Below, piece by piece: positions 3,693-19,358 of a stretch of 64,000 bases of DNA. The notes beneath the pieces are model-generated. The model made no database searches and was not told the DNA's origin. It worked only from the letters and a program-made list of their open reading frames with translations. The stretch covers positions 1,528,001 to 1,592,000 of the forward strand of contig NZ_CP047135.1 in the NCBI RefSeq assembly GCF_009832905.1. Direction: 5' to 3'. A program made the translations under genes and the position numbers. Each line of letters starts with the position of its first letter. The first letter of the stretch is position 1. The DNA is from Stenotrophomonas sp. 364 (GTDB lineage Bacteria > Pseudomonadota > Gammaproteobacteria > Xanthomonadales > Xanthomonadaceae).

Positions 3693-3753
3693 ATCCGATA
3701 ATCGCACACGTAGTCGATAAACGCACTTGAATGGTGCAGTGCGATAAACCTAC
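3693..3753. promoter_or_regulatory. Putative PcaR/PcaU-type (IclR) operator upstream of quiC
   Basis: The site contains ATCCGATAATCGCAC at 3693-3707 and AGTCGATAAACGCAC at 3712-3726, direct copies 19 bp apart, then an inverted weaker copy GTGCGATAAACCTAC at 3739-3753. From memory, the Pseudomonas putida PcaR box is GTTCGATAATCGCAC, which the first copy matches at 13 of 15 positions. A triple-copy layout (one palindrome plus one direct repeat) also resembles the PcaU/PobR operators of Acinetobacter. The site begins about 180 bp before quiC and would control quiC-quiX-quiB-pcaK. The rest of the gap 3570-3870 shows no gene. Confidence 0.7.
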
Positions 3754-3870
3754 TTTCAATCCCGTTCCAAGCGATCCACCTCTGGCGGGCGAGGGCAGTG
3801 CCACTACGGTACTGAAGCCAGGTACAGGGGAAAGACCGCCGGAGTCCCTTTCCCTGTGCGGAGCCTGCGC

Positions 3871-5382
3871 ATGCGTTGCCGTTTGTCTGTTGTTTCCCTG
3901 ACCCTGCTCGCCCTGCTGCCGTCGTTGGCGCTGGCTTACCAGGCCGAGCCGCCGCGCGAGGCGCTGCAGGTCCTGCACGTGGACCGCTACGCCGACGACG
4001 CCGCGCCCTGGTCGCTGCGCTGGGCGATCATCACCGCCAACCAGGCCCCGGGCCGCTACCGCATCGAGATCGACGCGGTGGGCAGCGCGCCGTATGTGAT
4101 CCGCCCGGCCTCGCCGCTGCCGGAGATCGTCGGCCCGGTGCAGATCGTCGGCACGCCGTGGGCGAGCGCCGGCCAGTATGTGGCCATCGACGGCGCCGGC
4201 TACGTCACCGGCACCGGCACCGATGCCTGCCCGGGTGCCGAGCCGGGCCAGTCCGGCACCAACGTGCGCACCACCACGCTGCCGGGGCTGGTCCTGCGCG
4301 ACACCACGGGCGTTGAGCTCAGCGGCCTTGAGATCCGCAACTTCTGCATCGGCGTGCTGATCAACCGCAGCAGCCACAGCGACATCCACGACAACCGCAT
4401 CGTGGCCAACAAGGGTGGCGCCGGCATCATGCTGACCGGCGACGACGGCGAGGGCCAGTCCACCGCCACCACCACCGTGCACAACCGCATCGTGCGCAAC
4501 CAGTTCGTCGACAACGGCGACGGGCTGGAGCTGACCCGCGGCGCGGCCTGGAACCTGGTGGCCGACAACCTGTTCCAGTCCACCGCCGCAAACCCGGAGC
4601 CGTCGCAGGGCATCGAAATTCTGTGGGGCAACGACAACACGGTGGTGCGCAACCGCTTCGTCGACTACTCCGACGGCCTGCAGATCAACTGGGGCAACCG
4701 CAACTACATCGCAGCCAACACCTTCACCGGCAACTCGATCGGGGTCAGCGTCACGGGCAGCGACAACGTGCTGGATGGCAACACGATCACCGGCAACGGG
4801 ATCGGCATCGCGGTGCGTCCACAGCCGGTAAGTGCACCGAACCGCTTCAGCGCCAACCAGATGGTCGGCAACGGGCTGAAGATCGCGCGCTGCGAAGCCG
4901 GTGGCGCTTGTGCCACGGGCCAGCCGCGCGGGGCGATCGTGTTCGGCGTACCGGGGCTGGAACACGCGAACTTCGTGGGCTCGCGCGGGCGCGGCGTCGA
5001 TACCGACCCGTCCAAGCGCGCGCGCATCTGCAGCGGCACCGACACGACAGGGTGCCAGCCGGCGCCCAACCTGGGCCAGGCCGCGCCGGTGTTGCAGGCG
5101 GTGCAGGGCACCGGCACCGCGCGCACCGTGCACGGGGTGTTCCAGGGCGTGCCGGGGCAGCGCTACCAGCTGGAAGTGTTCGGCAACCGCACCGCGAACA
5201 GCAGCGACGCCGAACGCCTGCTCGGCACCGTAGACGCCGTCACCGATGCGCAGGGGCAGGGCCGCTTCACGCTGGCGCTGCCGACCACGGGCGAGGCTGC
5301 CGGTATCGCCACGCTCACCGCCACCGCGACCTCCGCGCTGGGTGCCACCTCCCCGTTGAGCGCGCCGCTGTCGCTGCGCTGA
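3871..5382 (+). CDS. quiC: QuiC-like periplasmic 3-dehydroshikimate dehydratase (right-handed beta-helix)
   Basis: This 503-residue protein has a signal peptide (hydrophobic core about residues 5-20, cleavage after SLALA) followed by repeated beta-helix coils, seen as recurring HDNRIV, HNRIVRNQFVDN, VVRNRFVDYSDGL and IAANTFTGNSIGV segments over about residues 150-320. A beta-sandwich-like C-terminal part follows. Homology alone would give only a NosD/pectate-lyase-type fold. The function comes from context: the Acinetobacter quinate gene quiC encodes a beta-helix dehydroshikimate dehydratase, and here the gene opens an operon with quiX, quiB and a PcaK-like transporter. The reaction would be 3-dehydroshikimate to protocatechuate in the periplasm. 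No other dehydroshikimate dehydratase (AsbF or QuiC1 type) is present in the cluster. The ATG at 3871 has GGAG upstream; a GTG at 3856 is an alternative. Confidence 0.75.
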   Translation: MRCRLSVVSLTLLALLPSLALAYQAEPPREALQVLHVDRYADDAAPWSLRWAIITANQAPGRYRIEIDAVGSAPYVIRPASPLPEIVGPVQIVGTPWASAGQYVAIDGAGYVTGTGTDACPGAEPGQSGTNVRTTTLPGLVLRDTTGVELSGLEIRNFCIGVLINRSSHSDIHDNRIVANKGGAGIMLTGDDGEGQSTATTTVHNRIVRNQFVDNGDGLELTRGAAWNLVADNLFQSTAANPEPSQGIEILWGNDNTVVRNRFVDYSDGLQINWGNRNYIAANTFTGNSIGVSVTGSDNVLDGNTITGNGIGIAVRPQPVSAPNRFSANQMVGNGLKIARCEAGGACATGQPRGAIVFGVPGLEHANFVGSRGRGVDTDPSKRARICSGTDTTGCQPAPNLGQAAPVLQAVQGTGTARTVHGVFQGVPGQRYQLEVFGNRTANSSDAERLLGTVDAVTDAQGQGRFTLALPTTGEAAGIATLTATATSALGATSPLSAPLSLR

Positions 5383-5405
5383 CCCGTCGACCCCGAGAGA
5401 TTCCG

Positions 5406-6701
5406 ATGCGATTTCCGAACCCCACTCCGCTTGCCGTCCTGTTGTCCGCTGCCGTGCTGACGCCCGCGCTGGCCCACGCACAGGACAGCAACCGTTACGA
5501 CGGCAAGACGCTCACCGGCGACTGGGGCGGCACCCGTACCGCGCTGGACGAACGCGGCATCCGCTTCCGTGGCGACTACGTGGGCGAGGCGATGGGCGTG
5601 GTCGACGGCGGCTACGGCCGCACCGGCGCGCGCTATGCGCAGCAGGTGCGGGTCGGCGTCGACCTGGACATGGGCCGCCTGGCCGGCTGGGACGGCGGCG
5701 CCTTCCACGTCACCCTCAACGACCGCCGCGGCAACAGCACCTCGGCCGACCTGGTCGGCAACCGCTTCCCGATCCAGGAAGCCTACGGCGGGCAGTACAC
5801 CCGGCTCACCGAGGCCAGCTATGACCAGACCTTCAACGGTGGGCAGTCGTATTTCAAGCTGGGCTACTACGCGATGGGCAACCAGTTCGGCCTGCACAGC
5901 CTGCTGACCCACTTCGTCAACGCCGCTTTCTGCGCCCATCCGCTGGCGATGTCCGGCAACAGCGGCTGGTACAACTACCCCACGGCACGCTGGGGCGGTG
6001 AAGTGGCCCAGCAGGTGAGCCCGGCGCTGAACGTGCGCACCGGCTGGTTCCAGGTCAACCCGAACCTGGGCGGCAACATCGAACGCAATGCGTTTCGTCC
6101 GTTCGTGTCGGGCACCACCGGCTCGCTGATTCCGCTGGAAGTGACCTGGACCCCGGACAAGGGCGGGGCGTATCCGGGCGTGTACAAGTTCGGCGGCTAC
6201 TACGACACCTCGCGGGTGGACCAGCGCGGGCTCGATACCTCGCCCACCACCGGCCGCCACGGTGCGTATGTGCTGGCCGAGCAGCGGCTTACCCGCGAAG
6301 CCGGCGACCCGCAGCGCGGGCTGACCGCCTTCGCGCAGTACATGGTGTCGGACACCGACACCGCGCAGATCCGCCGCTGGTATGCACTGGGCGGCGTCTA
6401 CCAGGGCATCGGCACGCGTGCGCAGGACAGCATCGCGCTCGGCTACGTGGGCGCGGACATCAACCGCCGCCTGGTGGACGCGCGCCGCGCCACCCTGGCC
6501 GACATGGGGGTGGCGACGGACTCGCCGCTGTACCAGCTCAGCCAGGCCGAGGAACTGTTCGAACTGTCCTACAGCATCCAGGTGAACCCCTGGCTGATGA
6601 TCCGCCCCGACGTGCAGTACATCGTCAACCCCGGCACGTTCGCCTACACCCGCACCGACAACGCGTGGGCCGTGGGCGTGCAGGCCAAGGTGACTTTCTG
6701 A
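5406..6701 (+). CDS. quiX: OprB-family outer-membrane porin, QuiX-like
   Basis: This 431-residue protein has a signal peptide ending AHA and a mature N-terminus with LTGDWGGTRTALDERGI, the hallmark of carbohydrate-selective OprB porins. The C-terminal strand ends in Phe (AVGVQAKVTF), as required for outer-membrane insertion. Alternating amphipathic segments rich in Tyr and Gly run through the whole length. In Acinetobacter the quiX product, next to quiB, quiC and quiA, belongs to this family and is thought to admit quinate or shikimate. The gene lies 23 bp after quiC and its stop codon overlaps the quiB start, so translation is probably coupled. The substrate is inferred from context. Confidence 0.82.
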   Translation: MRFPNPTPLAVLLSAAVLTPALAHAQDSNRYDGKTLTGDWGGTRTALDERGIRFRGDYVGEAMGVVDGGYGRTGARYAQQVRVGVDLDMGRLAGWDGGAFHVTLNDRRGNSTSADLVGNRFPIQEAYGGQYTRLTEASYDQTFNGGQSYFKLGYYAMGNQFGLHSLLTHFVNAAFCAHPLAMSGNSGWYNYPTARWGGEVAQQVSPALNVRTGWFQVNPNLGGNIERNAFRPFVSGTTGSLIPLEVTWTPDKGGAYPGVYKFGGYYDTSRVDQRGLDTSPTTGRHGAYVLAEQRLTREAGDPQRGLTAFAQYMVSDTDTAQIRRWYALGGVYQGIGTRAQDSIALGYVGADINRRLVDARRATLADMGVATDSPLYQLSQAEELFELSYSIQVNPWLMIRPDVQYIVNPGTFAYTRTDNAWAVGVQAKVTF

Positions 6702-7588
6702 TGCGCGCCTTCCTTCCCTCGTTCCTGGTGAACCGCATGCGTCCGCTCACTCCCTTCATGCTGGCCGCCGTACTCGGCGGCGCCGCGGCCGTTGCCCACG
6801 CCGCACCGGTACCGGTCACGCCCTTGCAGGTAGGCACACTGCGCATCGGCGAAGGCGCGCCACGCACCATCGTGCCGATCACCGGCGCCACCGCCGAACA
6901 GGCGCTCCAGCAGGCCGCCGTGATCGCCGCCAGCCCGGCCACCGACCTGGCCGAATGGCGCATCGATTATCTGGACATCGCCACCGACGGCAAGGCGCTG
7001 GTGACCCTCGGCAAGCGCATCGCGCGCACGCTGGATGGCAAGCCGATGATCCTCACCTTCCGCACCCAGGCCGAAGGCGGCAGCAAGCCGATCAGCGACG
7101 CCGACTACGCCGCGCTGTACGCCACGCTGCTGCGCGGCGGCTTCACCCAGCTGATCGACGTGGAGATGTTCCGCGATCCGGAGCGGGTGGCGGCACTGGT
7201 CGCGCAGGCACACACGGCCGGGGTGAAGGTGGTGATGTCCAGCCACGACTTCCATGCCACCCCCGCGCGCGAGGAGATCGTGGCGCGGCTGCTGCGCCAG
7301 GAGGCGATGGGCGCGGACGTGTTGAAGATCGCGGTGATGCCGCGCGACGCCGGCGACGTGCTTGCCCTGCTGGATGCCACCTGGCAGGTGCGCCAGCGCA
7401 GCCGCAAGCCACTGCTGACCATGTCCATGGGCGGCACCGGCGTGGTCTCGCGGCTGGCCGGGGAAACCTTCGGCCAGGCGCTGACCTTCGGCATGATCGG
7501 CACCCCGTCGGCGCCAGGCCAGGTCGAGGTCGAGCAGCTGCAGCAGGTGCTCCAGGTCATCCATGCCTCCAGCCAGGCCGGTCGTTGA
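6701..7588 (+). CDS. quiB: Periplasmic type I 3-dehydroquinate dehydratase QuiB
   Basis: This is a type I (class I aldolase-like, Schiff-base) dehydroquinase of 295 residues. The catalytic pair is visible: His182 in MSSHDFHATP and Lys209 in DVLKIAVMP, 27 residues apart as in E. coli AroD. Unlike biosynthetic AroD, the protein has an N-terminal export signal (hydrophobic run MLAAVLGGAAAVAHA), which points to a periplasmic catabolic enzyme converting 3-dehydroquinate to 3-dehydroshikimate. The ATG at 6701 overlaps the quiX stop; the ATG at 6737 would give an equally good, shorter signal peptide. The gene sits between quiX and the transporter gene in one operon. Confidence 0.9.
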   Translation: MRAFLPSFLVNRMRPLTPFMLAAVLGGAAAVAHAAPVPVTPLQVGTLRIGEGAPRTIVPITGATAEQALQQAAVIAASPATDLAEWRIDYLDIATDGKALVTLGKRIARTLDGKPMILTFRTQAEGGSKPISDADYAALYATLLRGGFTQLIDVEMFRDPERVAALVAQAHTAGVKVVMSSHDFHATPAREEIVARLLRQEAMGADVLKIAVMPRDAGDVLALLDATWQVRQRSRKPLLTMSMGGTGVVSRLAGETFGQALTFGMIGTPSAPGQVEVEQLQQVLQVIHASSQAGR

Positions 7589-7637
7589 GACCTCCCCGCC
7601 GGACGCTCCCCGCACTACGTCGTCGCAGGATCCCCGT

Positions 7638-8957
7638 ATGAGCCATGCCACCGCCACCGCGTCCCCGCTCGTGCTCGAGCGGATGACTCCCTTCCAATGG
7701 ACGGCGATCGCCATCTGCGTGCTGTTGAACATGCTCGATGGCTTCGACGTGATGGTCATGGCGTTCACCGCGCCGCACGTGTCGGCCGACTGGGCGCTGT
7801 CGGGCAAGCTGCTGGGCATCATGCTCAGCGCCGGTCTGGTCGGCATGGCGCTGGGCTCGTTCCTGCTGGCGCCGCTGGCCGACCGCTGGGGCCGGCGGCC
7901 GATGATCATGCTGTGCCTGGTGATCCTCACCGTGGGCATGGCGTTGTCGGCGCTGGCCAGCAACGCGTGGCAACTGGGCGCGCTGCGCGTGTTCACCGGC
8001 GTGGGCATCGGCGGCATGCTGGCCGGCGTGGGCGTGATCACCGCCGAGTACGCCAACCCCAAATGGCGCAGCACCGCGGTGGCGCTGCAGGCCACCGGCT
8101 ACCCCATCGGCGCCACCCTGGGCGGGGTGCTGGCGGCCTGGATGCTGCAGCATTTCAGCTGGCACAGCGTGTTCCTGATTGGTGCTGGCGCGTCGTTGCT
8201 GTGCATCCCGCTGGTGCTCAAGTGCCTGCCCGAATCGCTGGATTTCCTGGTGGCGCGGCGTCCGCCGGATGCCTTGCCGCGGCTCAACGCGCTGCTGGCG
8301 CGCATGCACATGCCCGCGCTGCAGGCGCTGCCGCCGGCACCGGTGCGGGCCGATGGACGCAAGGGCTACGCCGCGCTGTTCGTCGGTGACCTGCGCCGGG
8401 TGGCGGTGCTGATCGCGATGGCGTTTTTCCTGCACATGTTCGCGTTCTATTTCGTGCTGAGCTGGACGCCGAAGCTGCTGGTCTCGGCCGGCGTATCGGC
8501 CCAGCAGGGCATCACCGGGGGCGTGCTGCTCAACCTGGGCGGGATTGTCGGTGGCAGCCTGTTCGGCTGGCTGGCGTCGCGCTGGGCGTTGTCGCGGCTC
8601 ACCGCGGCCAGCCTGCTGCTGGCGATGGTGGCGATGCTGGCCTTCGCCGGTTTCAACACCCAACTCGGTATCGCCTTCCCGGTGGCGTTCGTGATCGGTG
8701 CGGCCCTGTTCGGCGCCATGGCCGGGCTGTATGCCGCCGCGCCGGTGGTATTTGCCGCCGACGTGCGCACCACCGGGCTGGGCTGGGCGATCGGCATCGG
8801 CCGGGTCGGCGCCATTCTGTCGCCGCTCACCGTGGGCCTTCTGGTCGATGCGGGTTGGTCGCCCACCGCGCTCTACGTGCTGTGTGCGCTGCCGTTGGCA
8901 CTGGCGGCGTGGGCCTGCCTGGGCCTGCGCGTCGGCGTTGGCCAGACGCGCAAGTGA
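7638..8957 (+). CDS. pcaK: MFS aromatic acid:H+ symporter, PcaK-like
   Basis: This 439-residue, 12-helix major facilitator has the aromatic acid:H+ symporter marks: LNMLDGFDVMVMAF in helix 1 and the loop 2-3 motif LADRWGRRPMIM, followed by VGIGGMLAGVGVITAEYAN in helix 4. A central cytoplasmic loop of about 40 residues separates the halves. In this pathway order, with quinate processed in the periplasm, the most economical substrate is protocatechuate, as for PcaK. Quinate or shikimate uptake cannot be excluded. The gene starts 50 bp after quiB on the same strand and ends before the pcaI operator, so it is likely the last gene of the quiCXB-pcaK transcript. Confidence 0.8.
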   Translation: MSHATATASPLVLERMTPFQWTAIAICVLLNMLDGFDVMVMAFTAPHVSADWALSGKLLGIMLSAGLVGMALGSFLLAPLADRWGRRPMIMLCLVILTVGMALSALASNAWQLGALRVFTGVGIGGMLAGVGVITAEYANPKWRSTAVALQATGYPIGATLGGVLAAWMLQHFSWHSVFLIGAGASLLCIPLVLKCLPESLDFLVARRPPDALPRLNALLARMHMPALQALPPAPVRADGRKGYAALFVGDLRRVAVLIAMAFFLHMFAFYFVLSWTPKLLVSAGVSAQQGITGGVLLNLGGIVGGSLFGWLASRWALSRLTAASLLLAMVAMLAFAGFNTQLGIAFPVAFVIGAALFGAMAGLYAAAPVVFAADVRTTGLGWAIGIGRVGAILSPLTVGLLVDAGWSPTALYVLCALPLALAAWACLGLRVGVGQTRK

Positions 8958-8981
8958 GCCGCCGGGCATGGACAGTCGCGT

Positions 8982-9016
8982 GTGCGATTATCGCATCATG
9001 AGTCCGATTATCGGAT
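8982..9016. promoter_or_regulatory. Putative PcaR/PcaU-type operator upstream of pcaI
   Basis: Two direct copies start 20 bp apart: GTGCGATTATCGCAT at 8982-8996 and GTCCGATTATCGGAT at 9002-9016. They match the reverse complement of the PcaR box recalled from Pseudomonas putida at 13 and 12 of 15 positions. Each copy is itself nearly palindromic. The pair ends about 90 bp before the GTG of pcaI, a spacing that fits a promoter-overlapping IclR activator site. Confidence 0.72.
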
Positions 9017-9107
9017 TGACCGCATGGTCGCCGCTGCGCACCATGTCCGCGTCCCGTTTTCCCCCGTATGTCGCCGCCGCCTGCAGGGCACGGCAAGGAG
9101 CAACGCA

Positions 9108-9803
9108 GTGATCGACAAGACCGTGGCCAACGCTGACGCAGCGGTGGCCGACATCCACGACGGGGCGACGGTGATGATCGGCGGGTTCGGTACCGCCGGC
9201 ATGCCCGACGCCCTGATCGACGCCCTGATCGCGCAGGGCGCGCGCGGGCTGACCATCATCAACAACAACGCCGGCAACGGCGACACCGGGCTGGCCGCGC
9301 TGATCCGGCACAAGCGCGTGCGCCGCGTCGTGTGCTCGTTCCCGCGCCAGGCCGACTCGCAGCATTTCGATGCGGCCTACCGCGCCGGCGAGATCGAACT
9401 GGAGCTGGTGCCGCAGGGCAACCTGGCCGCGCGCATCCATGCCGCCGGCTCGGGCCTGGGTGCGATCTTCACCCCTACCGGTTACGGCACCGAACTGGCA
9501 CGCGGCAAGGAAACCCGCGAGATCGACGGGCGCCACTACGTGCTGGAGTACCCGCTGCACGCCGACTTCGCGCTGATCAAGGCCCACCACGGCGACCGCT
9601 GGGGCAACCTGGTGTACCGCAAGACCGCGCGCAACTTCGGCCCGCTGATGGCGATGGCCGCGCGCTGTGCGATCGTGCAGGTGGATGCCGTGGTGCCGCT
9701 GGGCGACCTGGACCCGGAGGCCGTGGTGACGCCCGGCATCTTCGTGCAGCGCGTGGTTGCCCTGGATGCCACCGCTACCGCCACCGTTGGAGCCCGCGCA
9801 TGA
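9108..9803 (+). CDS. pcaI: 3-oxoadipate CoA-transferase subunit A
   Basis: This 231-residue alpha subunit carries GATVMIGGFGTAGMPDALIDAL near the N-terminus and the glycine-rich GNGDTGLAALI segment of family I CoA-transferases. With PcaJ it moves CoA from succinyl-CoA to beta-ketoadipate in the cytoplasm. The GTG at 9108 was chosen because a good AAGGAG ribosome-binding site lies eight bases upstream and the family starts at this point; an upstream ATG at 8982 falls inside the operator. The stop overlaps the pcaJ start by four bases. This is the first gene of the pcaIJFHGBDC operon. Confidence 0.93.
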   Translation: MIDKTVANADAAVADIHDGATVMIGGFGTAGMPDALIDALIAQGARGLTIINNNAGNGDTGLAALIRHKRVRRVVCSFPRQADSQHFDAAYRAGEIELELVPQGNLAARIHAAGSGLGAIFTPTGYGTELARGKETREIDGRHYVLEYPLHADFALIKAHHGDRWGNLVYRKTARNFGPLMAMAARCAIVQVDAVVPLGDLDPEAVVTPGIFVQRVVALDATATATVGARA

Positions 9804-10447
9804 ACCGCCTGAGCCGCGAACAGATGGCCGCGCGCGTGGCGCGCGATATTCCCGAAGGTGCCTACGTCAATCTGGGCATCGGCCTGCCGACCACGGTGGC
9901 CAACTTCCTGCCGGCCGACAAGGAGATCTTCCTGCAGTCGGAGAACGGCCTGCTCGGCATGGGGCCAGCACCGGCAGCGGGCGAAGAGGACCCAGACCTG
10001 ATCAATGCCGGCAAACAGCCGGTGACCCTGCTCACCGGCGGCTGCTATTTCCACCATGCCGATTCGTTCGCGATGATGCGCGGCGGTCACCTGGACATCT
10101 GCGTGCTGGGTGCATTCCAGGTGTCGGCACAGGGCGACCTGGCCAACTGGAGCACCGGTGCGGCCGATGCCATCCCCGCCGTCGGTGGGGCGATGGACCT
10201 GGCCATCGGCGCCAAGCAGGTGTTCGTGATGATGGACCTGCTGACCAAGCAGGGGCAGAGCAAGCTGGTGGACACCTGCAGCTATCCGCTCACCGGGCTG
10301 CGCTGCGTGTCGCGCGTGTATACCGACGTGGCCGTGTTCGACCTGGGCGAGGCGGGCGCGCGCGTGCTGGAAATGGTGGACGGGGTGAGCCTGGAGCAGT
10401 TGCGTGAACTCACCGGCCTGCCGCTGCAGATGAGCGAAGGAGCCTGA
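9800..10447 (+). CDS. pcaJ: 3-oxoadipate CoA-transferase subunit B
   Basis: This 215-residue beta subunit contains [16 protein letters not shown] and the active-site region [15 protein letters not shown], whose Glu forms the glutamyl-CoA thioester intermediate. It pairs with PcaI (ATGA overlap) to activate beta-ketoadipate. The length is typical for the family. The pcaF gene begins two bases after its stop, so all three genes should be translated from one message. Confidence 0.94.
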
Positions 10448-10448: not shown

Positions 10449-11663
10449 ATGACCCTGCACGACACCTACATCATCGATGGCATCCGTACCCCGATCGGCC
10501 GCTACGGCGGTGCGTTGGCCGGCGTGCGCGCCGATGACCTCGGCGCGATCCCGTTGAAGGCGCTGCTGGCGCGCCATCCGCAGCTGGACCCGGCGTTGAT
10601 CGACGAGGTCTACCTGGGCTGCGCCAACCAGGCCGGCGAAGACAACCGCAACGTGGCCCGCATGAGCCTGCTGCTGGCCGGCCTGCCGGTGAGCGTGCCG
10701 GGCAGCACCGTCAACCGGCTGTGCGGCTCGGGGCTGGATGCGATCGGTACGGTGGCACGCGGCATCGCCGCCGGTGAACTCGGGCTGGCCATTGCCGGCG
10801 GCGTGGAGTCGATGTCGCGGGCGCCGTACGTGATGGGCAAGGCAGGCACGCCCTTCGCGCGCGACCAGGTGATGGAAGACACCACCATGGGCTGGCGTTT
10901 CATCAACCCGCAGCTGCGCGCGCTGTATGGCGTGGAGACCATGGGCCAGACCGCCGAGAACGTGGCCGAGCGGTACGCGGTATCGCGCGCCGACCAGGAC
11001 GCGTTCGCGCTGCGCAGCCAGCAGCGCGCCGCCGCCGCCCAGCAACGCGGGTTCTTCGACGGCGAGATCGTGGCGGTGGACGCACCCGGGCGCAAGCGCG
11101 GTGAAACCGTGCGCGTGGCGCGCGATGAACACCCGCGCGCGGACACCACGCTGGACGCGTTGGCCGCGCTCAAGCCGTTGTTCCGCCAGCCCGGCACGGT
11201 GACCGCCGGCAATGCGTCGGGCATCAACGATGGCGCCGCCGCGTTGCTGCTGGCGTCGGGCGCACAGGCACGCACACTGGGCCTGACCCCGCGCGCGCGC
11301 ATCCTGGGCTTTGCCAGTGCCGGGGTCGAACCGGCGGTGATGGGCATGGGCCCGGTACCGGCCACGCAGCGCCTGTTGGCGCGGCTCGGGCTGTCCATCG
11401 CCGATTTCGATGCGATCGAGCTCAACGAAGCGTTTGCTTCGCAGGGGCTGGCGTGCCTGCGCCAGTTCGGTGTCGCCGACGATGCCGCGCACGTCAACGC
11501 CAATGGCGGTGCTATCGCGCTGGGCCATCCGCTGGGCATGAGCGGGGCGCGCCTGGCGCTGACCCTGCTGCGCCAGCTGGAAGCCAGCGGGGGGCGGCGT
11601 GGTCTGGCCACCATGTGCATCGGCGTGGGCCAGGGGGTCGCGCTGGCCATCGAGCGCGTGTGA
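10449..11663 (+). CDS. pcaF: Beta-ketoadipyl-CoA thiolase
   Basis: This 404-residue thiolase splits 3-oxoadipyl-CoA with CoA to succinyl-CoA and acetyl-CoA, the last step of the beta-ketoadipate pathway. The acyl-accepting Cys92 lies in [12 protein letters not shown], the histidine motif in [17 protein letters not shown], and the second cysteine in [14 protein letters not shown]. The start [20 protein letters not shown], and placement directly after pcaIJ, favour PcaF over a general acetyl-CoA acetyltransferase. A gap of about 106 bp separates it from pcaH. Confidence 0.94.
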
Positions 11664-11769: not shown

Positions 11770-12480
11770 ATGAGCGATCCCACTGACCTGCGCGGCTACC
11801 GCAGGCCCTATCCCGGCACCCAGCCGGACCGCATCCACCTGCCGTATGCGTCCACCCGCCTGCGCGGCCCCGGACGTGACCCGATCCAGATCCCGGCCAC
11901 GCTGTCCGAAGTGACCGGGCCTACCTTGGACCGCATCACCCTGGGCGAACACGCCGCCGACCTGACCGCCGGTTTCAAGGGTCAGCCGCTGGGCGAGCGT
12001 ATCGTGGTCAGTGGCCGGGTGCTGGACGAGAACGGTCGCCCGGTGCGCAACAGCGTGGTCGAGGTATGGCAGTGCAACGCCGCCGGTCGCTACCTGCACA
12101 AGGGCGACCAGCACGATGCACCGCTGGACCCCAATTTCACCGGCACCGGCCAGGTGCTCACCGACGACCACGGCCGTTACCGCTTCACCACCATCAAGCC
12201 CGGCGCCTACCCGTGGCGCAACCACTACAACGCGTGGCGACCGGCACACATCCACTTTTCGCTGCACGGCGAAGGCATCGGCCAGCGCCTGGTCACGCAG
12301 ATGTACTTCCCCGGCGATCCGTTGCTGGCGTACGACCCGATCTACAACTGCGTGGACGACGCCAAGGCCCGCGAGCGCATGGTGTCCTCGTTCGACTGGG
12401 AAAACACCGCCAACGAATTCGCCCTCGGCTACCGCTTCGACATCGTGTTGCGCGGTCGCAAGATGACCGTGTGGGAGTAA
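11770..12480 (+). CDS. pcaH: Protocatechuate 3,4-dioxygenase beta chain
   Basis: This 236-residue subunit holds the catalytic iron. The four ligands are all visible: Tyr108 (GRYLH), Tyr147 (GAYPW), His160 and His162 (AHIHFS), at exactly the spacing of the Pseudomonas putida enzyme. With PcaG it performs intradiol cleavage of protocatechuate to 3-carboxy-cis,cis-muconate. The ATG at 11770 follows CGGAG. The frame is open further upstream, but the family starts here. The pcaG gene follows after four bases. Confidence 0.96.
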   Translation: MSDPTDLRGYRRPYPGTQPDRIHLPYASTRLRGPGRDPIQIPATLSEVTGPTLDRITLGEHAADLTAGFKGQPLGERIVVSGRVLDENGRPVRNSVVEVWQCNAAGRYLHKGDQHDAPLDPNFTGTGQVLTDDHGRYRFTTIKPGAYPWRNHYNAWRPAHIHFSLHGEGIGQRLVTQMYFPGDPLLAYDPIYNCVDDAKARERMVSSFDWENTANEFALGYRFDIVLRGRKMTVWE

Positions 12481-12484: not shown

Positions 12485-13048
12485 ATGAGTTTCCAATCCA
12501 CTCCGTGGCAGACCGTGGGCCCGTACTACCGGCTGGGCCTGGAACCGCTGTACCGCACCGACATCGCGCCGGCCCAGGCGCAGGGGGAGCGCGTACAGGT
12601 GCAGGGCCAGGTGTTCGATGGCCTGGGCGTGCCGGTGTCCGATGCCGTGCTGGAAATCTGGCAGGCCGACGCGCAGGGCATCTACGCCCATCCGGAAGAC
12701 CCGCGCCACGCCGCGCATGACCCGGGCTTCGATGGCTGGGGCAGGGTGCCCACCGACGCGCAGGGCCGCTTCGCCTTCACCACCGTGCGCCCGGGCAGTG
12801 TGGCCGGTCCCAAGGGGCAGCCGCAGGCACCGCACCTGATGGTGCTGGTGTTCATGCGCGGTCTGCTGCGCGCGGCCAGTGCGCGGATGTATTTCAGCGA
12901 CGCGCCGGGCAATGCCGACGATCCGATCCTGGCCCTGGTGCCGGCCGAACGCCGCGCCACGCTCATCGCCCAGGCGCAGGGCAACGGCCTGTACCACTGG
13001 GACGTGCGCATGCAGGGCGAGCTGGAAACCGTGTTCTTCGACTACTGA
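12485..13048 (+). CDS. pcaG: Protocatechuate 3,4-dioxygenase alpha chain
   Basis: This 187-residue subunit is homologous to PcaH (TVGPYYRLGLEPLYRTD, then VFDGLGVPVSDAVLEIWQAD) but lacks the iron ligand set, as expected for the alpha chain. It shapes the active site at the alpha-beta interface. The length and the tight coupling to pcaH match the known gene pair. Confidence 0.95.
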   Translation: MSFQSTPWQTVGPYYRLGLEPLYRTDIAPAQAQGERVQVQGQVFDGLGVPVSDAVLEIWQADAQGIYAHPEDPRHAAHDPGFDGWGRVPTDAQGRFAFTTVRPGSVAGPKGQPQAPHLMVLVFMRGLLRAASARMYFSDAPGNADDPILALVPAERRATLIAQAQGNGLYHWDVRMQGELETVFFDY

Positions 13049-13117
13049 TGCCGGCCTGCACGCGCGGCCTGACGGCGCGCGGGTAAGCTGGGTCCACCTT
13101 TGACTGGATGGCGTTTG

Positions 13118-14461
13118 ATGAGCGATTTCCCCTCGCTGCTTGGCGGCCTGTTCGGTGCGCCGGAGGTGGACGCAGTGTTCACCGACACCGCACGTCTGCA
13201 GGCAATGCTCGACGTGGAAGCCGCGCTGGCACGTGCGCAGGTGCGCTGTGCGGTGATTCCACCGGCCGCGCTCGGCGCGATCGAAGCGGCCTGCCGGGCC
13301 GACCTGTATGCCGTGCCCGCACTGGGCCAGGCCACGTTGCTGGCGGGCAATCCCGCCATTCCGCTGGTCAAGGCGCTGACTGCGCAGGTGCGCCACGCCG
13401 ATGCCGACGCCGCGCGCTGGGTGCACTGGGGCGCCACCAGCCAGGACATCATCGATACCGGCGCAGTGCTGCAGCTGCGCGAGGCAGTAGGCCTGGTGCA
13501 GGAGCGGCTGCATGTGTTGTGCACCGCGCTGGCGGTGCTGGCCGATGCCGAGCGCGATACCGGCCTGCCCGGGCGCACGCTGCTGCAACAGGCGGTGCCG
13601 GTGACCTTCGGGCTGAAGGCTGCCGGTTGGCTCGACGCATTGCACCGCAGCCAACGGCGCCTGCAGGCGTTGTACGACGACACGCTGGTGCTGCAGTTCG
13701 GCGGTGCGGCCGGGACCCTGGCCTCGCTGCAGGCGCGCGGCCTGGACGTGGCCCAGGCCCTGGGCGACGAACTGCAGTTGCCGGTGCCGGCGCTGCCGTG
13801 GCATACCGCCCGCGACCGGGTGGCCGAGCTCGGCAGCACGTTCGCGCTGCTCACCGGCACACTGGGCAAGATCGCCACCGACATCGTGCTGCTGATGCAG
13901 TCCGAAGTAGCCGAAGCATTCGAGCCGGTCGGCGAGGGCAGGGGCGGGTCGTCGGCGATGCCGCACAAGCGCAATCCGGTGGGCTGCGTGGCGGCCATTG
14001 CCTCGGCCACGCGGGTGCCGGGCCTGGTGTCCACCTTGTTCGTGGCGATGCCGCAACCGCATGAGCGCGCGGCCGGGCAGTGGCATGCCGAGTGGGAAAC
14101 CGTGCCGGAGATCGTGCGCCTGTGCGCCGGCAGCCTGGCCCAGGTGACCGTGGTGGTGCAGGGCCTGCAGTTGGACCGGGCGCGCATGCGCGACCACCTG
14201 GACAGCCACGGGGGGCTGCTTTACGCCGAAGCGGTGGCGGTGACGCTGGCTGAAACGCTGGGCAAGGCCACCGCGCATGCGCTGGTGGAACAGGCCGCGC
14301 GCCAGGCGCTGGCACAGTCACGTCACCTGCGCGATGTGCTGCAGGACATGCCGACGGTGAGCGCGCAGCTGTCGCCGACGCAGCTGGCGGCGTTGTTCGC
14401 GCCCGACAGCTGGCGCGGCATGGCCGACACCTGGATCAACCGCGTGCTGGCGCAGCGCTGA
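13118..14461 (+). CDS. pcaB: 3-carboxy-cis,cis-muconate cycloisomerase
   Basis: This 447-residue protein is a fumarase/aspartase superfamily lyase with the signature GGSSAMPHKRNPVGC at about residues 282-296 and a second conserved motif, WGATSQDIIDTG, at about 105-116. It converts 3-carboxymuconate to 4-carboxymuconolactone. The ATG at 13118 (MSDFPSLLGGLFG) is the family start; the six codons upstream lack support. The gene lies between pcaG and pcaD on the same strand. Confidence 0.94.
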   Translation: MSDFPSLLGGLFGAPEVDAVFTDTARLQAMLDVEAALARAQVRCAVIPPAALGAIEAACRADLYAVPALGQATLLAGNPAIPLVKALTAQVRHADADAARWVHWGATSQDIIDTGAVLQLREAVGLVQERLHVLCTALAVLADAERDTGLPGRTLLQQAVPVTFGLKAAGWLDALHRSQRRLQALYDDTLVLQFGGAAGTLASLQARGLDVAQALGDELQLPVPALPWHTARDRVAELGSTFALLTGTLGKIATDIVLLMQSEVAEAFEPVGEGRGGSSAMPHKRNPVGCVAAIASATRVPGLVSTLFVAMPQPHERAAGQWHAEWETVPEIVRLCAGSLAQVTVVVQGLQLDRARMRDHLDSHGGLLYAEAVAVTLAETLGKATAHALVEQAARQALAQSRHLRDVLQDMPTVSAQLSPTQLAALFAPDSWRGMADTWINRVLAQR

Positions 14462-14481
14462 ACCCTATTTGGAGTGTTGCA

Positions 14482-15258
14482 ATGCAATTTCTTGAGCTGG
14501 ATACGCATCGCCTGCATTACCGCATTGACGGGCCGGACGATGCGCCGTTGCTGACCTTCTGCAACTCGCTGGGCACCGACCTGCACATGTGGGACCCGCA
14601 GGTGGCGGCCTTGTCGAAGCGGTTCCGGATCCTGCGCTATGACCGCCGTGGGCATGGCCACTCCAGCGCGCCGCCGGGCCTGTACGGCGTGGCCGATCTG
14701 GGCGCGGACGTACTGGCCCTGTGGGACCACCTGAGGGTAGCGCGCAGCCATTTCTGCGGGCTGTCGATCGGTGGCCTGACCGGGCAGTGGCTGGGCGTGC
14801 ATGCCGGCACGCGCCTGCATAGCCTGACGGTGGCGGCTACCGCCGCGAAGATCGGCACGGCCGAGAGCTGGGACGCGCGCATCGCGCAGGTGCGTGCGCA
14901 CGGACTGGTGCCGCTGCGCGAGGGCACCGCCGAACGTTGGTTCACCCCGGCCTTCACTGCAGCGGAACCGGCGCGGGTTGAGGACATTCTGCAGCGCTTC
15001 GTCGCCACCACCGTTGCAGGCTACGTGGGCTGCTGCCACGCCGTGGCCACCGCGGACTTCCGTGACTCGCTGGCGCAGATCCGCGTGCCGACCCTGGCCA
15101 TCGCCGGCGACGACGACCCTGTCTGCCCGCCCGCAGACCTGCACGCCATCGCACGCGGGGTCGCCCACGGCCACGCCGTCACGGTGCCCGGCCGCCACAT
15201 CTGCAACATCGAATCTGCCGACGCATTCACCGCCGCCCTCACTGCCCACCTGACCTAG
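14482..15258 (+). CDS. pcaD: 3-oxoadipate enol-lactonase
   Basis: This 258-residue alpha/beta hydrolase has nucleophile Ser95 in CGLSIGG, an oxyanion region around FCNSLGTDLHMWDPQ, an acid in AIAGDDDPVCPP and the catalytic His in VPGRHICNIE near the C-terminus. It hydrolyses beta-ketoadipate enol-lactone to beta-ketoadipate. TTGGAG lies before the ATG. The stop TAG directly abuts a small palindrome (ACCGACCGTTGGTCGGT) placed between pcaD and pcaC. Confidence 0.94.
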   Translation: MQFLELDTHRLHYRIDGPDDAPLLTFCNSLGTDLHMWDPQVAALSKRFRILRYDRRGHGHSSAPPGLYGVADLGADVLALWDHLRVARSHFCGLSIGGLTGQWLGVHAGTRLHSLTVAATAAKIGTAESWDARIAQVRAHGLVPLREGTAERWFTPAFTAAEPARVEDILQRFVATTVAGYVGCCHAVATADFRDSLAQIRVPTLAIAGDDDPVCPPADLHAIARGVAHGHAVTVPGRHICNIESADAFTAALTAHLT

Positions 15259-15283
15259 ATACCGACCGTTGGTCGGTACATCC
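15259..15283. repeat. SMAG-like palindrome between pcaD and pcaC
   Basis: A single stem, TACCGACCGTTGGTCGGTA, fills most of the 47-bp pcaD-pcaC gap and begins right after the pcaD TAG stop. It is the GACC/GGTC member of the repeat family seen across the window. It could stabilise the upstream message or reduce pcaC expression. Confidence 0.6.
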
Positions 15284-15305
15284 CATCCAAAACGAGGCAT
15301 CCCCA

Positions 15306-15698
15306 ATGGACGAACAGGAACGCTACGAAGCCGGCCTGACCGTGCGCCGCGCCGTACTCGGCGAGGCCCACGTCGAGCGCTCGCTGCAGGCGCGCACCGA
15401 CTTCACCCACGAATTCCAGGATTTCATCACCCGTACCGCATGGGGCACGGTGTGGACCCGCGACGGCCTGCCGCGTCACACCCGCTCGCTGCTGACCATC
15501 GTGATGATGGTGGCGCTGGGGCACGACGAAGAGTTCAAGCTGCACATCCGCGCCGCGCGCAACAACGGCGTCACCCCGGACGAGATCAAAGAGGTGCTGT
15601 TGCAGGCCGCCATCTACTGCGGCGTGCCGGCCGCCAACCACGCCTTCGCCCTGGCCAAGCCGATCCTCGAAGAACAAGCCAACGACCCACCGCGGTGA
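15306..15698 (+). CDS. pcaC: 4-carboxymuconolactone decarboxylase
   Basis: This 130-residue all-helical protein of the CMD family contains NDFTHEFQDFITRTAWGTVW-like and LTIVMMVALGHDEEFKLHIRAA segments. The EIKEVLLQAAIYCGVPAANHAF motif carries the conserved Glu, Cys and His. It decarboxylates 4-carboxymuconolactone to the enol-lactone used by PcaD. The protein is stand-alone, not the PcaDC fusion seen in some bacteria. It is the last gene of the pca operon, converging on the regulator gene. Confidence 0.95.
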   Translation: MDEQERYEAGLTVRRAVLGEAHVERSLQARTDFTHEFQDFITRTAWGTVWTRDGLPRHTRSLLTIVMMVALGHDEEFKLHIRAARNNGVTPDEIKEVLLQAAIYCGVPAANHAFALAKPILEEQANDPPR

Positions 15699-15708
15699 GC
15701 CCAGCACC

Positions 15709-15735
15709 GGTAGTGCCGGCCGCTGGCCGGCAACC
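15709..15735. repeat. SMAG palindrome between convergent pcaC and pcaR
   Basis: A GTAGTGCCGGCCGCTGGCC-type hairpin follows the pcaC stop by about 10 bp. No T-run follows, so it is a repeat-borne hairpin rather than a classical terminator, though it sits where one would be expected. Confidence 0.65.
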
Positions 15736-15780
15736 CGAACGACGCGAACGAAACCGGATATCGCCGGCCAACACCCCGCC

Positions 15781-16635
15781 TCAATGCAGCAACGTACCCA
15801 GCCGCTGCGCCGCTTCCCGCAGCCGCGGCAGCAGCTGCGACTGCATCACCCCCAGGCTGACGCGCCCGGCCTGGGTCCCAATGTTCAGTGCGCCCACCAC
15901 CGCACCACTGCGCGCGTGCACCGGCACGGCGATCGAGCGCAGCCCGATCTCCAGCTCCTGGTCCACCAGCGCCACGCCGTCGCGACGCACGCGGTCCAGC
16001 GTGTCCAGGAATTCGTCCATGCGCGTCACGGTGCGCTCGGTGCGCGGCCGCAGCGGATTGCGTTCCAGGTAGCTTTCCAGCGTGTCGTGCGGCAACGCGG
16101 CCAGCAGCACGCGGCCCATCGAGGTGCAGTACGCCGGCAGACGGCTGCCGGCGCGCAGCCCGATCGACATGATCCGCACGGTTTCAGCGCGGGCCACGTA
16201 CAGCACGTCATCGCCATCCAGCACGCCCAGCGAGCATGACTCGTGCACGTCGTCGCGCAGGGCGTCCAGCACCGGCTGCGCAGCCGCGGTCATCGACGAC
16301 GACGCGACATAGGCCCCGCCCATGCCCAGCACGCGCGGCAGCAGCACGAAGCCACGGCCCTGTTCGCCCACGTAGCCGAGCTTTTCCAGTGTGTACAACA
16401 CACGGCGCACCGCCGCGCGCGAGATGCCGGTTTCGGTGCTGATCTGCGACATGGTCACTTCGCGCGGGTGTTGCGAAAATACGCTCAGCACCACCAGCCC
16501 GCGGCCGAGGGAGGTCATGAAATCCGGATCGCCCTGGTTGTCCTGGATCAGCTGCATCAGCTCATGGCTGAGCCCGCGATCCTGCGGCGGGGCAGGGGCG
16601 CGCTTGGGGCGACGGCTGGGAGGTACGGCAGACAT
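15781..16635 (-). CDS. pcaR: IclR-family regulator, PcaR/PcaU type
   Basis: This 284-residue regulator has a winged helix-turn-helix at about residues 60-90 (TMSQISTETGISRAAVRRVL, then TLEKLGYVG) and a C-terminal IclR effector domain with SCSLGVLDGDDVLYVAR, SRLPAYCTSMGRVLLA and LGLMQ-like segments. A region of about 40 residues before the DNA-binding domain, rich in Pro and basic residues, is typical of the PcaR/PobR subgroup. It probably senses beta-ketoadipate or protocatechuate and activates the three transcripts carrying the shared box. The ATG at 16635 was chosen; an ATG at 16665 (MHDHRARTT) is possible. It lies 95 bp downstream of quiA on the same strand. Confidence 0.85.
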   Translation of the reverse strand: MSAVPPSRRPKRAPAPPQDRGLSHELMQLIQDNQGDPDFMTSLGRGLVVLSVFSQHPREVTMSQISTETGISRAAVRRVLYTLEKLGYVGEQGRGFVLLPRVLGMGGAYVASSSMTAAAQPVLDALRDDVHESCSLGVLDGDDVLYVARAETVRIMSIGLRAGSRLPAYCTSMGRVLLAALPHDTLESYLERNPLRPRTERTVTRMDEFLDTLDRVRRDGVALVDQELEIGLRSIAVPVHARSGAVVGALNIGTQAGRVSLGVMQSQLLPRLREAAQRLGTLLH

Positions 16636-16695
16636 GGCGGTGGTTCGTGCTCGGTGATCGTGCATGGTAAGGGCTGCACGCGACGAAGCGAAGCT

Positions 16696-16725
16696 GCGCG
16701 CCACGGTGGGAAGACCGTGGCGCGC
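16696..16725 (-). terminator. Strong hairpin between quiA and pcaR
   Basis: A perfect 12-bp stem (GCGCGCCACGGT / ACCGTGGCGCGC) with a 6-base loop lies six bases past the quiA stop. The minus-strand sequence after it has no long T-run, so it may be a leaky terminator or an RNA-stability element that lowers pcaR expression relative to quiA. Confidence 0.5.
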
Positions 16726-16730
16726 GGGGC

Positions 16731-19157
16731 TCAGCGCCTGGCCGGCAACGCGTAGGCGATCACGTAGTCGCCACGATCCGGCGACTGGCGTGCACCGCCG
16801 GCGGAAATCACCACGTACTGGCGACCGGTTTTCGGCGACACATAGGTGATCGGCGTGCCCTGGCTGCCCACCGGCATGCGCGCCTTCCATACTTCCTTGC
16901 CTGTGCGGCTGTCATAGGCGCGCAGGTAATAATCCTGGGTGCCGGCGAAGAACAGCAGGCCCGACTGGGTCGCCAGCGAGCCGCCCAGGGTGGGCATGCC
17001 GATCGGAATCGGCAGGCGCATTTTGATGCCCATCGGTCCGGTGTCTTTCACCGTACCGACCGGCACCTGCCAGACCAGTTCGTGGGTGGCCAGGTTGATC
17101 GCCGACATCGTGCCGAACGGCGGCTTCTGGCACGGGATGCCCAGTTTGGACAGGAAGCGATCCCGCAGCGAGCCATACGGTGTGCCGGTCTGCGAGGCCG
17201 CGCCCATTTCCACGCCGCCCGCACCGGTGGTCATTTCCGCGCGCGGAATGAGCTTGGTCCACAGGCCCAGGCGCATGTCGTTGACGAACAGGTAGCCGGT
17301 GGTGGGATCCACCGACGCGCTGCCCCAGTTCATGCCGCCCAGCGAGCCGGGCCATTGCAGGGCCAGGTCCTCGCCCGGCGGGGTGAACATGCCGTCGTAG
17401 CGGAAGCCCTTGAACTGGATGCGGCACAGCATCTGGTCGATCGGCGTGGCGCCCCACATGTCCGATTCGGTCAGCGTCTGCGCACCGATCTGCGGCAGCC
17501 CCACCGACAGGCGCTGGGTGGGCGAATAGCGCTCGCCCGCGGCGTTGCCCTGCGGTGCCGCGATGTCGCGCACCTCGGTGATCGGCTGGCCGGTGGCGCG
17601 GTTGAGCATGAATACCTGGCCGGCCTTGGTGATCTGCAGCAGCGCGGGCAGGGTGCCGCCCTTGCCGTCCGGTACGTCGGTCAGAGTGGGCTGCGCAGGC
17701 AGGTCGTAATCCCACAGGTCGTGGTGCACGGTCTGGTAGACCCAGCGCTCCTTGCCGGTGGCCACATCCAGTGCCACCACCGCCGAGCTGTACTTGTCGT
17801 CCTGCGGAGTGCGCTCGCCGGCCCACTGGTCCGGCGTGGTGTTGCCGGTGGGCAGGTAGACCAGGCCCAGCTGCGGGTCATAGGCCATCGAGGTCCACAC
17901 GTTCGGGGTGGCGCGGGTGTAGTGGATGGACGGATCCAGCGGCACGTCCGGGGTTTCCCGGGACAGGTCCCAGACCCAGGCCAGCGCGCCGCTGCGCACG
18001 TTGTAGGCACGCACCACGCCGGACGGTTCGTTGACCTCGATATTGTCGGCCACCCGGCCGCCCACGATCACCAGTTCACCGGCCACCAGGGGCGCGGCGG
18101 TCAGCGTGTAGAAGCCGGGCTTGATCTCGCCCATGCCCCGTTTGAGGTCCACCACGCCGGCCTCGCCGAAGTCCGGGCAGGGCGCGCCGGTGGTGGCATC
18201 CAGCGCGAACAGGCGCGCGTCGATCGAGGTCATCAGAATGCGCTTCTCGCACAGCGCCGGGGCCGGTGCCGCGGCGACGGTAGCCGGTACGGCAGGGCTC
18301 GGTGCGGCGGCGACGGTGGGCGCGCCGACCAGCGGCTGGCCTGCGTCGAAATAGCCCAGGCCACGGCAGCGCTGCCAGTTCGGCGCGCTCGCCTTGGGGT
18401 CGAACGCCCAGCGCTGTTTGCCGCTGTCCACGTCCAGCGCCACCACCTGGTTGTGCGGCGTGCACAGGTACAGCGTGTCCCCGATCTGCAGCGGGGTGTT
18501 CTGGTCTTCGGCGCCGAAGCCATCGCTCTGCGGCACGTCGCCGGTATGCGCGGTCCAGGCGACCTGGAGCTGGGTGATGTTGGCCGGGGTGATCTGGTCC
18601 AGCGCGGCAAAACGGGTGCCGGCCGTGGTGTTGCCCCAGTGCTGCCAGTCGCGCTGCTCGCTACCCTTGGCCACCGGCACCACGGCCGGGGCCGCGCCCT
18701 TCGCGGTGACCACCGGGCGCGGCTGGAACGCCGACACTGCGGTACCCAGCAGGCCCACCAGCAGCAGCGCGGCCACGCCGTAGGCCGCGCGCCCGGGGCG
18801 CTGGCCACGGCTGCGCCGGAGCACCGGCCAGGTCAGTGCGACCAGCGTCGCCAGCACGGCGGGCATCACCAGCCGCGACACCAGCGGCCAGAATTCCAGC
18901 CCGGCATCGGCCAGCGCCCAGGCCACGGTGGCGACGAACGCCACGCCATACAGCAGCGCGCCCAGCGGGCGACGCAGGGCCAGCAGCCCGCCGGCCACCA
19001 GCGAGGCGGCGCCCATCAGCAGGAAGTACCAGCTGCCGCCCAGCTGGGCCAGCCGCACGCCGCCTACCAGCAGAACCAGGCCGAACAGCATCACCACGAT
19101 GCCAATCAGGACCACCAAGGTGCGGCACAGGGCCGACGGTTTCGTGTTCTCGTCCAC
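16731..19157 (-). CDS. quiA: Membrane-bound PQQ-dependent quinate/shikimate dehydrogenase
   Basis: This 808-residue protein, the size of the Acinetobacter enzyme, has about five membrane helices in residues 1-150 and then an eight-bladed PQQ propeller facing the periplasm. Visible propeller features are [20 protein letters not shown], the catalytic-region [15 protein letters not shown], and the late blade motifs [19 protein letters not shown] and [20 protein letters not shown]. It oxidises quinate to 3-dehydroquinate (and shikimate to 3-dehydroshikimate), passing electrons to ubiquinone. The GTG at 19157 fits the membrane-domain start and has AGAGG upstream. Context separates it from glucose dehydrogenase of the same fold: it is next to pcaR and across from quiB and quiC. 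No pqq biosynthesis genes lie in the window. Confidence 0.88.
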
Positions 19158-19324
19158 GTTGCATGAACCTCTACAGGAAACCCGGTACCGACCGGCACCG
19201 GGCAGGCCCGCGCGCGCCATGCGTGGCGGGGACCGTTGGCCATCACACCCCGGCATTGCCTTGCCCGACAGGGGCGCGGGAATGCTTCGCTGCTTATCGC
19301 GGAAAGGGAGTGAACGACCGGTTA

Positions 19325-19358
19325 GGGCGATTATCGCACCGTTGTGCGATTTACGCGT
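19325..19358. promoter_or_regulatory. Putative PcaR/PcaU-type operator upstream of quiA
   Basis: An inverted pair, GGGCGATTATCGCAC at 19325-19339 and GTGCGATTTACGCGT at 19344-19358, surrounds a GTT spacer. The first half matches the recalled PcaR box at 12 of 15 positions. It lies about 170 bp before quiA and about 110 bp before the divergent apt gene. The rest of the gap 19158-19464 shows no gene. Confidence 0.62.

Follow-up and report, generated by a model that had tools for sequence, protein, structure and literature searches.

A 64,000-nucleotide stretch of the Stenotrophomonas sp. 364 genome (hereafter the window; bases 1528001-1592000 of a single 4.84-Mb contig rated 100% complete and 1.71% contaminated) carries 14 adjoining genes, at window positions 3871-19157, which together cover each carbon step from quinate to succinyl-CoA and acetyl-CoA. 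We propose, with a probability of about 0.78, that these genes form a periplasmic quinate/shikimate-to-beta-ketoadipate cluster of the type known from Acinetobacter baylyi ADP1, in a bacterium that is probably unable to make pyrroloquinoline quinone (PQQ), the cofactor of the first enzyme, QuiA, and that scavenges it through the TonB-dependent receptor PqqU. The initial annotation of this locus had described 14 linked genes encoding every step of the route; all of them are present, open and adjoining, and the description holds for the carbon steps, the supply of PQQ having been left out. Carbon conversion is fully covered by the cluster, whereas provision of its cofactor probably is not. As judged from the predicted proteins, the enzyme set and periplasmic layout are those of ADP1, and the core system is already known; what is added is the probable cofactor gap, the PqqU candidate, and the presence of pqqU or of PQQ synthesis genes beside quiA in some relatives. 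Quinate is not mentioned in the main text of a 2025 survey of PqqU (PMC12124388), nor in the literature searched on PQQ and PqqU.

ADP1 has pqqA-E, and its pqq genes are reported to be essential for growth on quinate (PMC4213383). Neither PqqE nor PqqC was found in Stenotrophomonas sp. 364, the best match to the PqqE model (TIGR02109) scoring 23 bits against a cut-off of 381.35; PqqA, PqqB and PqqD were outside this search. PqqE exceeded its cut-off in none of 91 genomes of the genus, including that of strain 364, and PqqC (TIGR02111) produced no match at E 0.001 in the same 91 genomes. No control genome matched PqqC in that scan; the positive control for this model is a separate scan of 42 non-Stenotrophomonas QuiC-bearing genomes, in which PqqC exceeded its cut-off in exactly the 24 genomes that also contain PqqE. 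These 24 are likewise the PqqE-positive members of a set of 49 named QuiC-bearing genomes, chosen from 80 QuiC loci that are the best 80 of 155, and they are unevenly distributed: PqqE was detected in 3/3 Xanthomonas, 16/17 Pseudomonas (one of them labelled Pantoea), 1/1 Azotobacter and 1/1 Solimonas, as against 0/7 Stenotrophomonas, 0/2 Pseudoxanthomonas, 0/1 Caulobacter and 3/17 Acinetobacter. A QuiA-type match is encoded in 48 of the 49. The exception, A. rudis, is a single case in which quiB, quiC and quiX are kept but quiA is missing from both cluster and genome, PqqE and PqqC score below cut-off, and PqqU has no match. By these profile searches, a lack of recognisable PQQ synthesis is common among the quinate-cluster carriers examined and general in the genus genomes examined. 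The assumption of the initial annotation that the pathway works in this organism is therefore not to be taken for granted with PqqE and PqqC not found, and imported PQQ had been overlooked. Because these two proteins were not found, QuiA activity should depend on imported PQQ, and growth on quinate is predicted to depend on PQQ from outside.

Many Gram-negative bacteria use PQQ without making it and import it through PqqU, which is recognised by Y, F or W at position 99 together with R304 and R365 (PMC12124388). A search with the E. coli PqqU revealed one clear partner in the genome of strain 364 (C1:4436460-4438451, 45% identity, E=7e-166; gene C1:4436334-4438457), the next TonB receptor trailing at E=1.8e-15. 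The candidate displays F99, K274, R304, R365 and R536, so that the three signature positions are occupied by F, R and R, and it has L instead of Q at position 310. Changes at five PqqU residues harmed import in E. coli, in which Q310 was reported not to be critical (PMC12124388). The genome thus carries one good candidate for a PqqU-type PQQ importer, with binding and import predicted from the sequence.

Using this protein as query at E 1e-40, we surveyed 80 chosen genomes and obtained a PqqU match in 70 (37/38 of the genus and 33/42 of the named genomes); after a first screen, scoring was confined to about 14 candidates in each genome, and misses are less certain than matches. All 69 translated matches (69/69) contain the three-residue signature, a split copy having been left out; in the assembly of this last genome (G006), the gene is in two pieces (C4:107440-109565). 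Among genomes with QuiA and without PqqE, PqqU is present in 33/35, namely 18/18 Stenotrophomonas and 15/17 others, the two without a match being P. wayambapalatensis and Caulobacter hibisci.

We read the 80 QuiC loci with flanks of up to 10 kb, some shorter. Three of them, all from Acinetobacter (A. tandoii, Acinetobacter sp. ANC 4910 and A. kanungonis), have pqqU as the next gene after quiA and in the same orientation, the order being quiB-quiC-quiX-quiA-pqqU and the quiA and pqqU frames 58-59 bp apart. Of these three genomes, that of A. tandoii was examined for PQQ synthesis, and neither PqqE nor PqqC exceeded its cut-off there. Acinetobacter sp. ANC 3813, in which PqqE and PqqC were not found, has a gene for a QuiX-like porin (31%), followed by one for a QuiA/Gcd-type dehydrogenase (39% to QuiA) and then by pqqU. 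Azotobacter beijerinckii, whose genome has no PqqU match, carries pqqB, pqqC and pqqE after quiA in the same orientation. Overall, pqqU lies within 7 kb of a PQQ dehydrogenase gene in 6/33 named PqqU-positive genomes versus 0.63 expected under random placement, with the 7-kb limit picked after the distances had been seen and related genomes not discounted. A separate observation concerns a gene of about 345 amino acids (aa) that follows pqqU in all three qui-pqqU loci; the A. tandoii protein has no Pfam or NCBIfam match and, considered as a possible relative of YncE, shows no similarity to it. More broadly, it is rather likely that quinate catabolism in Stenotrophomonas and many Acinetobacter is a case of cofactor cross-feeding, in which cells that have the entire pathway use quinate only if PQQ-making neighbours provide PQQ for uptake via PqqU, and that the PQQ need of the qui cluster is satisfied in at least three ways: by PQQ synthesis encoded elsewhere in the genome (ADP1 and most Pseudomonas examined), by PQQ synthesis genes behind quiA (Azotobacter beijerinckii), or by pqqU behind quiA (A. 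tandoii, A. kanungonis and Acinetobacter sp. ANC 4910).

The cluster itself consists of two convergent runs, quiC-quiX-quiB-MFS-pcaIJFHGBDC on the plus strand (MFS denoting a major facilitator superfamily transporter gene) and quiA-pcaR on the minus strand, and links all of the enzymes quiA, quiB, quiC and pcaHGBCDIJF, as does the ADP1 supercluster. Quinate or shikimate would cross the outer membrane, probably via QuiX (5406..6701, plus strand), a porin of the OprB family (PF04966, E=3.8e-84, with a longer frame from 4623 as the query). QuiA (16731..19157, minus strand) would then oxidise quinate or shikimate with PQQ held on the periplasmic face. It matches the membrane-bound PQQ-dependent quinate/shikimate dehydrogenase model TIGR03074 with 1040.1 bits (cut-off 832.65) and has five N-terminal hydrophobic helices followed by the PQQ propeller, as judged by eye and from hydropathy, in agreement with its earlier designation as a membrane PQQ enzyme. 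Out of 11 positions inspected against E. coli Gcd, which we take to be involved in PQQ and Ca binding, nine are identical in QuiA (R266, D354, N355, W404, T424, D466, K493, N607 and D730) and two deviate (H262 to R, D327 to E); together with the TIGR03074 score, this places QuiA in the glucose/quinate/shikimate family of membrane-bound PQQ dehydrogenases.

QuiB and QuiC would form protocatechuate in the periplasm. QuiB (6737..7588, plus strand; alternative ATG start possible at 6701) is a type I 3-dehydroquinate dehydratase (TIGR01093, 226.9 bits, cut-off 139.3), its best match among solved enzymes being 4ph6 (E=4.3e-63). QuiC (3871..5382, plus strand; alternative upstream GTG start possible at 3856) is a beta-helix protein that matches a solved 3-dehydroshikimate dehydratase, 8wm1, over residues 19-501, nearly its whole length (530.9 bits, E=2.6e-158). 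The only Pfam families over cut-off in QuiC are generic beta-helix and NosD families; its identification as a NosD copper protein was rejected in view of the match to the solved dehydratase and a score of 49.8 of 300 bits with the NCBIfam NosD subfamily. QuiC, QuiX and QuiB all begin, to the eye, with a signal-peptide-like segment, and the N-terminal hydropathy peak passes the threshold in QuiC and QuiB, not in QuiX, in line with the export signals attributed to QuiB and QuiC at the outset. We also noted, among the proteins compared, a 778-aa chain (P0059) fusing QuiC-type and QuiB-type domains, which fits both working in one compartment. A single type II dehydroquinase, encoded elsewhere in the same genome, would serve biosynthesis. 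This separate enzyme agrees with the initial suggestion that the catabolic dehydroquinate pool is kept apart from the biosynthetic one; for ADP1, however, some passage of dehydroquinate and/or dehydroshikimate out of the periplasm into the cytoplasm has been suggested (PMC4213383), and the separation need not be strict.

Protocatechuate would be taken into the cell by the inner-membrane MFS carrier (7638..8957, plus strand), a relative of the aromatic acid/H+ symporters, and converted to succinyl-CoA and acetyl-CoA by PcaHG, PcaB, PcaC, PcaD, PcaIJ and PcaF. All pca enzymes are encoded on the plus strand: the subunits A and B of 3-oxoadipate CoA-transferase, PcaI (9108..9803) and PcaJ (9800..10447), which exceed the cut-offs of TIGR02429 and TIGR02428, respectively, both subfamily and not equivalog models; the 3-oxoadipyl-CoA thiolase PcaF (10449..11663; TIGR02430, 697.9 bits, cut-off 597); the protocatechuate 3,4-dioxygenase beta chain PcaH (11770..12480; 2pcd_M, E=1.1e-67) and alpha chain PcaG (12485..13048; TIGR02423, 236 bits, cut-off 126.25); the 3-carboxy-cis,cis-muconate cycloisomerase PcaB (13118..14461; NF006554 and TIGR02426 over cut-off); the 3-oxoadipate enol-lactonase PcaD (14482..15258; TIGR02427, 330.2 bits, cut-off 255.85); and the 4-carboxymuconolactone decarboxylase PcaC (15306..15698; TIGR02425, 197 bits, cut-off 155.7). 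Supply of the cofactor would fall to the unlinked PqqU, with the scavenged PQQ loading apo-QuiA directly in the periplasm. The statements on localisation, transport roles, regulation, PQQ import and growth are, throughout, predictions from sequence.

Regulation is predicted to rest on an IclR regulator of the PcaR/PcaU type (15781..16665, minus strand; TIGR02431, 319.4 bits, cut-off 284.75). The published PcaU and PcaR consensus contains the core CGATWATCG, PcaU additionally needing an extra half-site (PMC8222616). This core occurs four times in the window versus 0.17 expected, a number reached in 0/100 shuffles, and all four occurrences precede cluster genes: quiC (3696), pcaI (8985 and 9005) and quiA (19328). 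The corresponding putative operators, all given on the plus strand, comprise TCCGATAATCGCA (3694-3706) with a weaker copy, GTCGATAAACGCA (3713-3725), before quiC (operator 3694..3725); two tandem exact cores before pcaI (8983-8995 and 9003-9015); and GGCGATTATCGCA (19326-19338) with a weaker copy (19345-19357) before quiA (operator 19326..19357), the second copy beginning 19-20 bases off at each of the three places. With the operators before quiC (from 3694) and quiA (19326-19357) included, the locus spans 3693-19358. The regulator is thus accompanied by matching sequences at three promoters, to which it is predicted to bind. Since pcaR follows quiA in the same orientation after a gap of 65 bp, it is probably part of the quiA unit, and the arrangement suggests three transcription units, quiC-X-B-MFS, pcaIJFHGBDC and quiA-pcaR, which the regulator would control. 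Among relatives, the exact core precedes pcaI in 8/8 named Stenotrophomonas loci and is missing there from a Pseudoxanthomonas locus (L027); within 500 bp before quiC it is present in 4/8 named Stenotrophomonas loci and in 0/7 other loci examined. Before quiA, it is found in 13/13 of the Stenotrophomonas loci that were read (from 10 distinct genomes, among them strain 364), 3/3 Xanthomonas and 1/1 Pseudoxanthomonas, and was not found in the three others read, from Solimonas, Azotobacter and Pseudomonas brassicae.

Within the genus, QuiC (at least 79% identity) and QuiA (at least 86%) are encoded by one and the same set of 18 genomes out of 91; in the other 17, identities amount to 79-97% for QuiC and 86-98% for QuiA, and no stops interrupt the genes. 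Stop codons were reported in some QuiA/Gcd matches; many of these matches extend to the C terminus of the query, and there the natural stop codon of the gene may account for the report. In the synteny comparison of Stenotrophomonas and Xanthomonas put forward with the initial annotation, gene order and the left neighbours (genes for a glutathione S-transferase and SelO) are the same in 8/8 named Stenotrophomonas loci within the extent of the flanks, pcaR and quiA lying beyond the flank in all eight and pcaC in five, and quiC-quiX-quiB-MFS recurs in 3/3 Xanthomonas. A second, distant QuiC type (56-59% identity) is encoded in genomes G008 (C1:1125720-1127291), G046 and G077. Two of the 91 genus genomes have a distant QuiC only; a close QuiA ortholog was not found in G046 or G077, and the distant QuiC may serve another route.

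Several observations weigh against our interpretation. Two new Stenotrophomonas species, which may or may not carry the cluster, are reported to be unable to oxidise quinic acid (PMC11035887). The MFS protein scores 186.6 of 770 bits with the PcaK equivalog and 354.9 of 418.55 with the aromatic-acid/H+ symporter subfamily, below both cut-offs; it is no clear PcaK by its sequence, and the original 'PcaK-like' label is to be kept loose. The operator core was fixed at nine bases only after the sites had been seen, and a more permissive 13-base pattern, allowing two mismatches at most, gives nine matches versus 6.6 expected, that is, no excess, although 5/9 fall at the three operator places. The candidate pqqU gene lies outside the window, unlinked to quiA, and the 15 kb read around it contain no PcaR-type core. 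PqqU is also encoded in 18/24 genomes that have both QuiA and PqqE, two of these matches being weak (31-32% identity), so that the contrast with the 33/35 genomes lacking PqqE is itself weak (Fisher p=0.053, with lineages that are not independent). Sub-cut-off matches to the PqqE model, which represent other radical-SAM proteins, occur in 91/91 genus genomes and 14/14 controls.

Two further points of this kind bear on the identity of the receptor. Its score with the NCBIfam PqqU family NF041535, 640.4 of 1200 bits, is below cut-off, though this is its best-scoring family; the A. tandoii PqqU, at 813.7 bits, is likewise below it. Furthermore, genus genomes without a membrane PQQ dehydrogenase were expected to lack PqqU, an expectation refuted by its presence in 7/8 of those without a QuiA/Gcd-type match, which argues against a close coupling of PqqU to such enzymes in the genus. 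Both would be explained if the PqqU-like receptor imported another substrate and PQQ reached QuiA only by diffusion through porins when abundant. We consider this unlikely, given that the five residues whose alteration impaired import in E. coli are kept, Y99 as F, a replacement accepted in the published signature (PMC12124388), that this signature recurs in every translated match, and that pqqU adjoins quiA in the three Acinetobacter loci and lies near PQQ dehydrogenase genes more often than expected, albeit within a limit chosen post hoc.

The missing PqqE and PqqC, and the restriction of QuiC and QuiA together to 18/91 genus genomes, are also what one would see if the cluster were a decaying remnant in which QuiA is never active for want of PQQ and only the pca half is used, on protocatechuate from elsewhere. 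Such decay appears improbable: none of the 14 reading frames is interrupted, QuiC and QuiA are retained together at high identity and free of internal stops in the other 17 genomes, the core before quiA is kept in all 13 Stenotrophomonas loci read, and the genome holds a candidate PQQ importer. That the strain makes PQQ with genes unseen by the PqqE and PqqC models, rendering the cluster self-sufficient as in ADP1, is very improbable, for although profile searches can miss divergent enzymes, PqqA, PqqB and PqqD were outside the own-genome search, and radical-SAM matches in the genus reach 80.9 bits (G045), the two models give matching outcomes for each of 42 other genomes, 3/3 Xanthomonas included, and neither reaches its cut-off in the 91 genus genomes, the 23 bits in strain 364 being far from 381.35. 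An ADP1-type cluster served by scavenged PQQ remains our preferred reading.

Comparison with known systems places the locus close to ADP1, where quinate dissimilation involves 14 genes, including three that account for two transporters and a regulator (PMC4213383). The two clusters share the same kinds and number of genes, a PcaU-type regulator with operators and the same periplasmic route, here predicted from sequence; ADP1 differs in having pqqA-E. The Acinetobacter loci compared, which do not include that of ADP1, have one common gene order, a single long run with a divergent regulator, which in ADP1 we take to be pcaU, pcaIJFBDKCHG-quiBCXA; here, by contrast, there are two convergent runs, with quiA-pcaR on the opposite strand and operator cores at three places. 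The earlier statement that the enzyme set is that of Acinetobacter with gene order and strands rearranged is therefore accurate, and the proteins share about 28-68% identity with those of A. tandoii, Acinetobacter sp. ANC 4910 and A. kanungonis. Solimonas marina likewise has all 14 genes linked, in one 21-kb stretch, but its pca genes diverge from pcaR-MFS-quiCBXA, no exact core precedes quiC or quiA, and its genome encodes PqqE and PqqC. Xanthomonas shares the quiC-quiX-quiB-MFS order and the core before quiA. It differs in that no pca gene was found in the flanking sequence read (up to 10 kb), that quiC is not preceded by an exact core, and that PqqE is present in 3/3 genomes, unlike Stenotrophomonas; a new Xanthomonas species is reported to use quinic acid (PMC11035887). 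In Pseudomonas loci, quiC is the only one of these cluster genes detected (E 1e-15). The E. coli PqqU/Gcd pair is alike in combining a PQQ-dependent membrane dehydrogenase, no PQQ synthesis found, and a TonB receptor with the published residues; the enzyme served here would instead be a quinate dehydrogenase.

The surroundings of the cluster are ordinary, with the genes for the glutathione S-transferase and SelO on the left and, on the right, genes for a phosphoribosyltransferase-domain protein and a DbpA-type helicase; large overlapping open reading frames in other frames were assumed to be high-GC artefacts on the basis of codon-position G+C. Elsewhere in the window, positions 27091-34930 encode an efflux system whose two pump subunits differ from each other, consisting of a membrane fusion protein followed by two adjoining resistance-nodulation-division pump genes (1169 and 1029 aa). 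GC-rich intergenic tandem repeat arrays lie at 20121-20225, 34941-35410, 38242-38368 and 61844-62669, the last with about ten 84-base copies, and some are made of units like GTAGAGCCGGGCTCTGCCCGGC; they resemble short palindromic repeats of Stenotrophomonas.

Quinate is an abundant plant acid, and a bacterium holding all the enzymes for its degradation but not the cofactor of the first step would grow on it only in company. If this is true, growth predictions based on nothing but a count of pathway genes would be wrong. Beyond the separation of the two dehydroquinate pools, the periplasmic layout of the pathway may have a second use, in that a scavenged cofactor would reach its enzyme after crossing the outer membrane alone.

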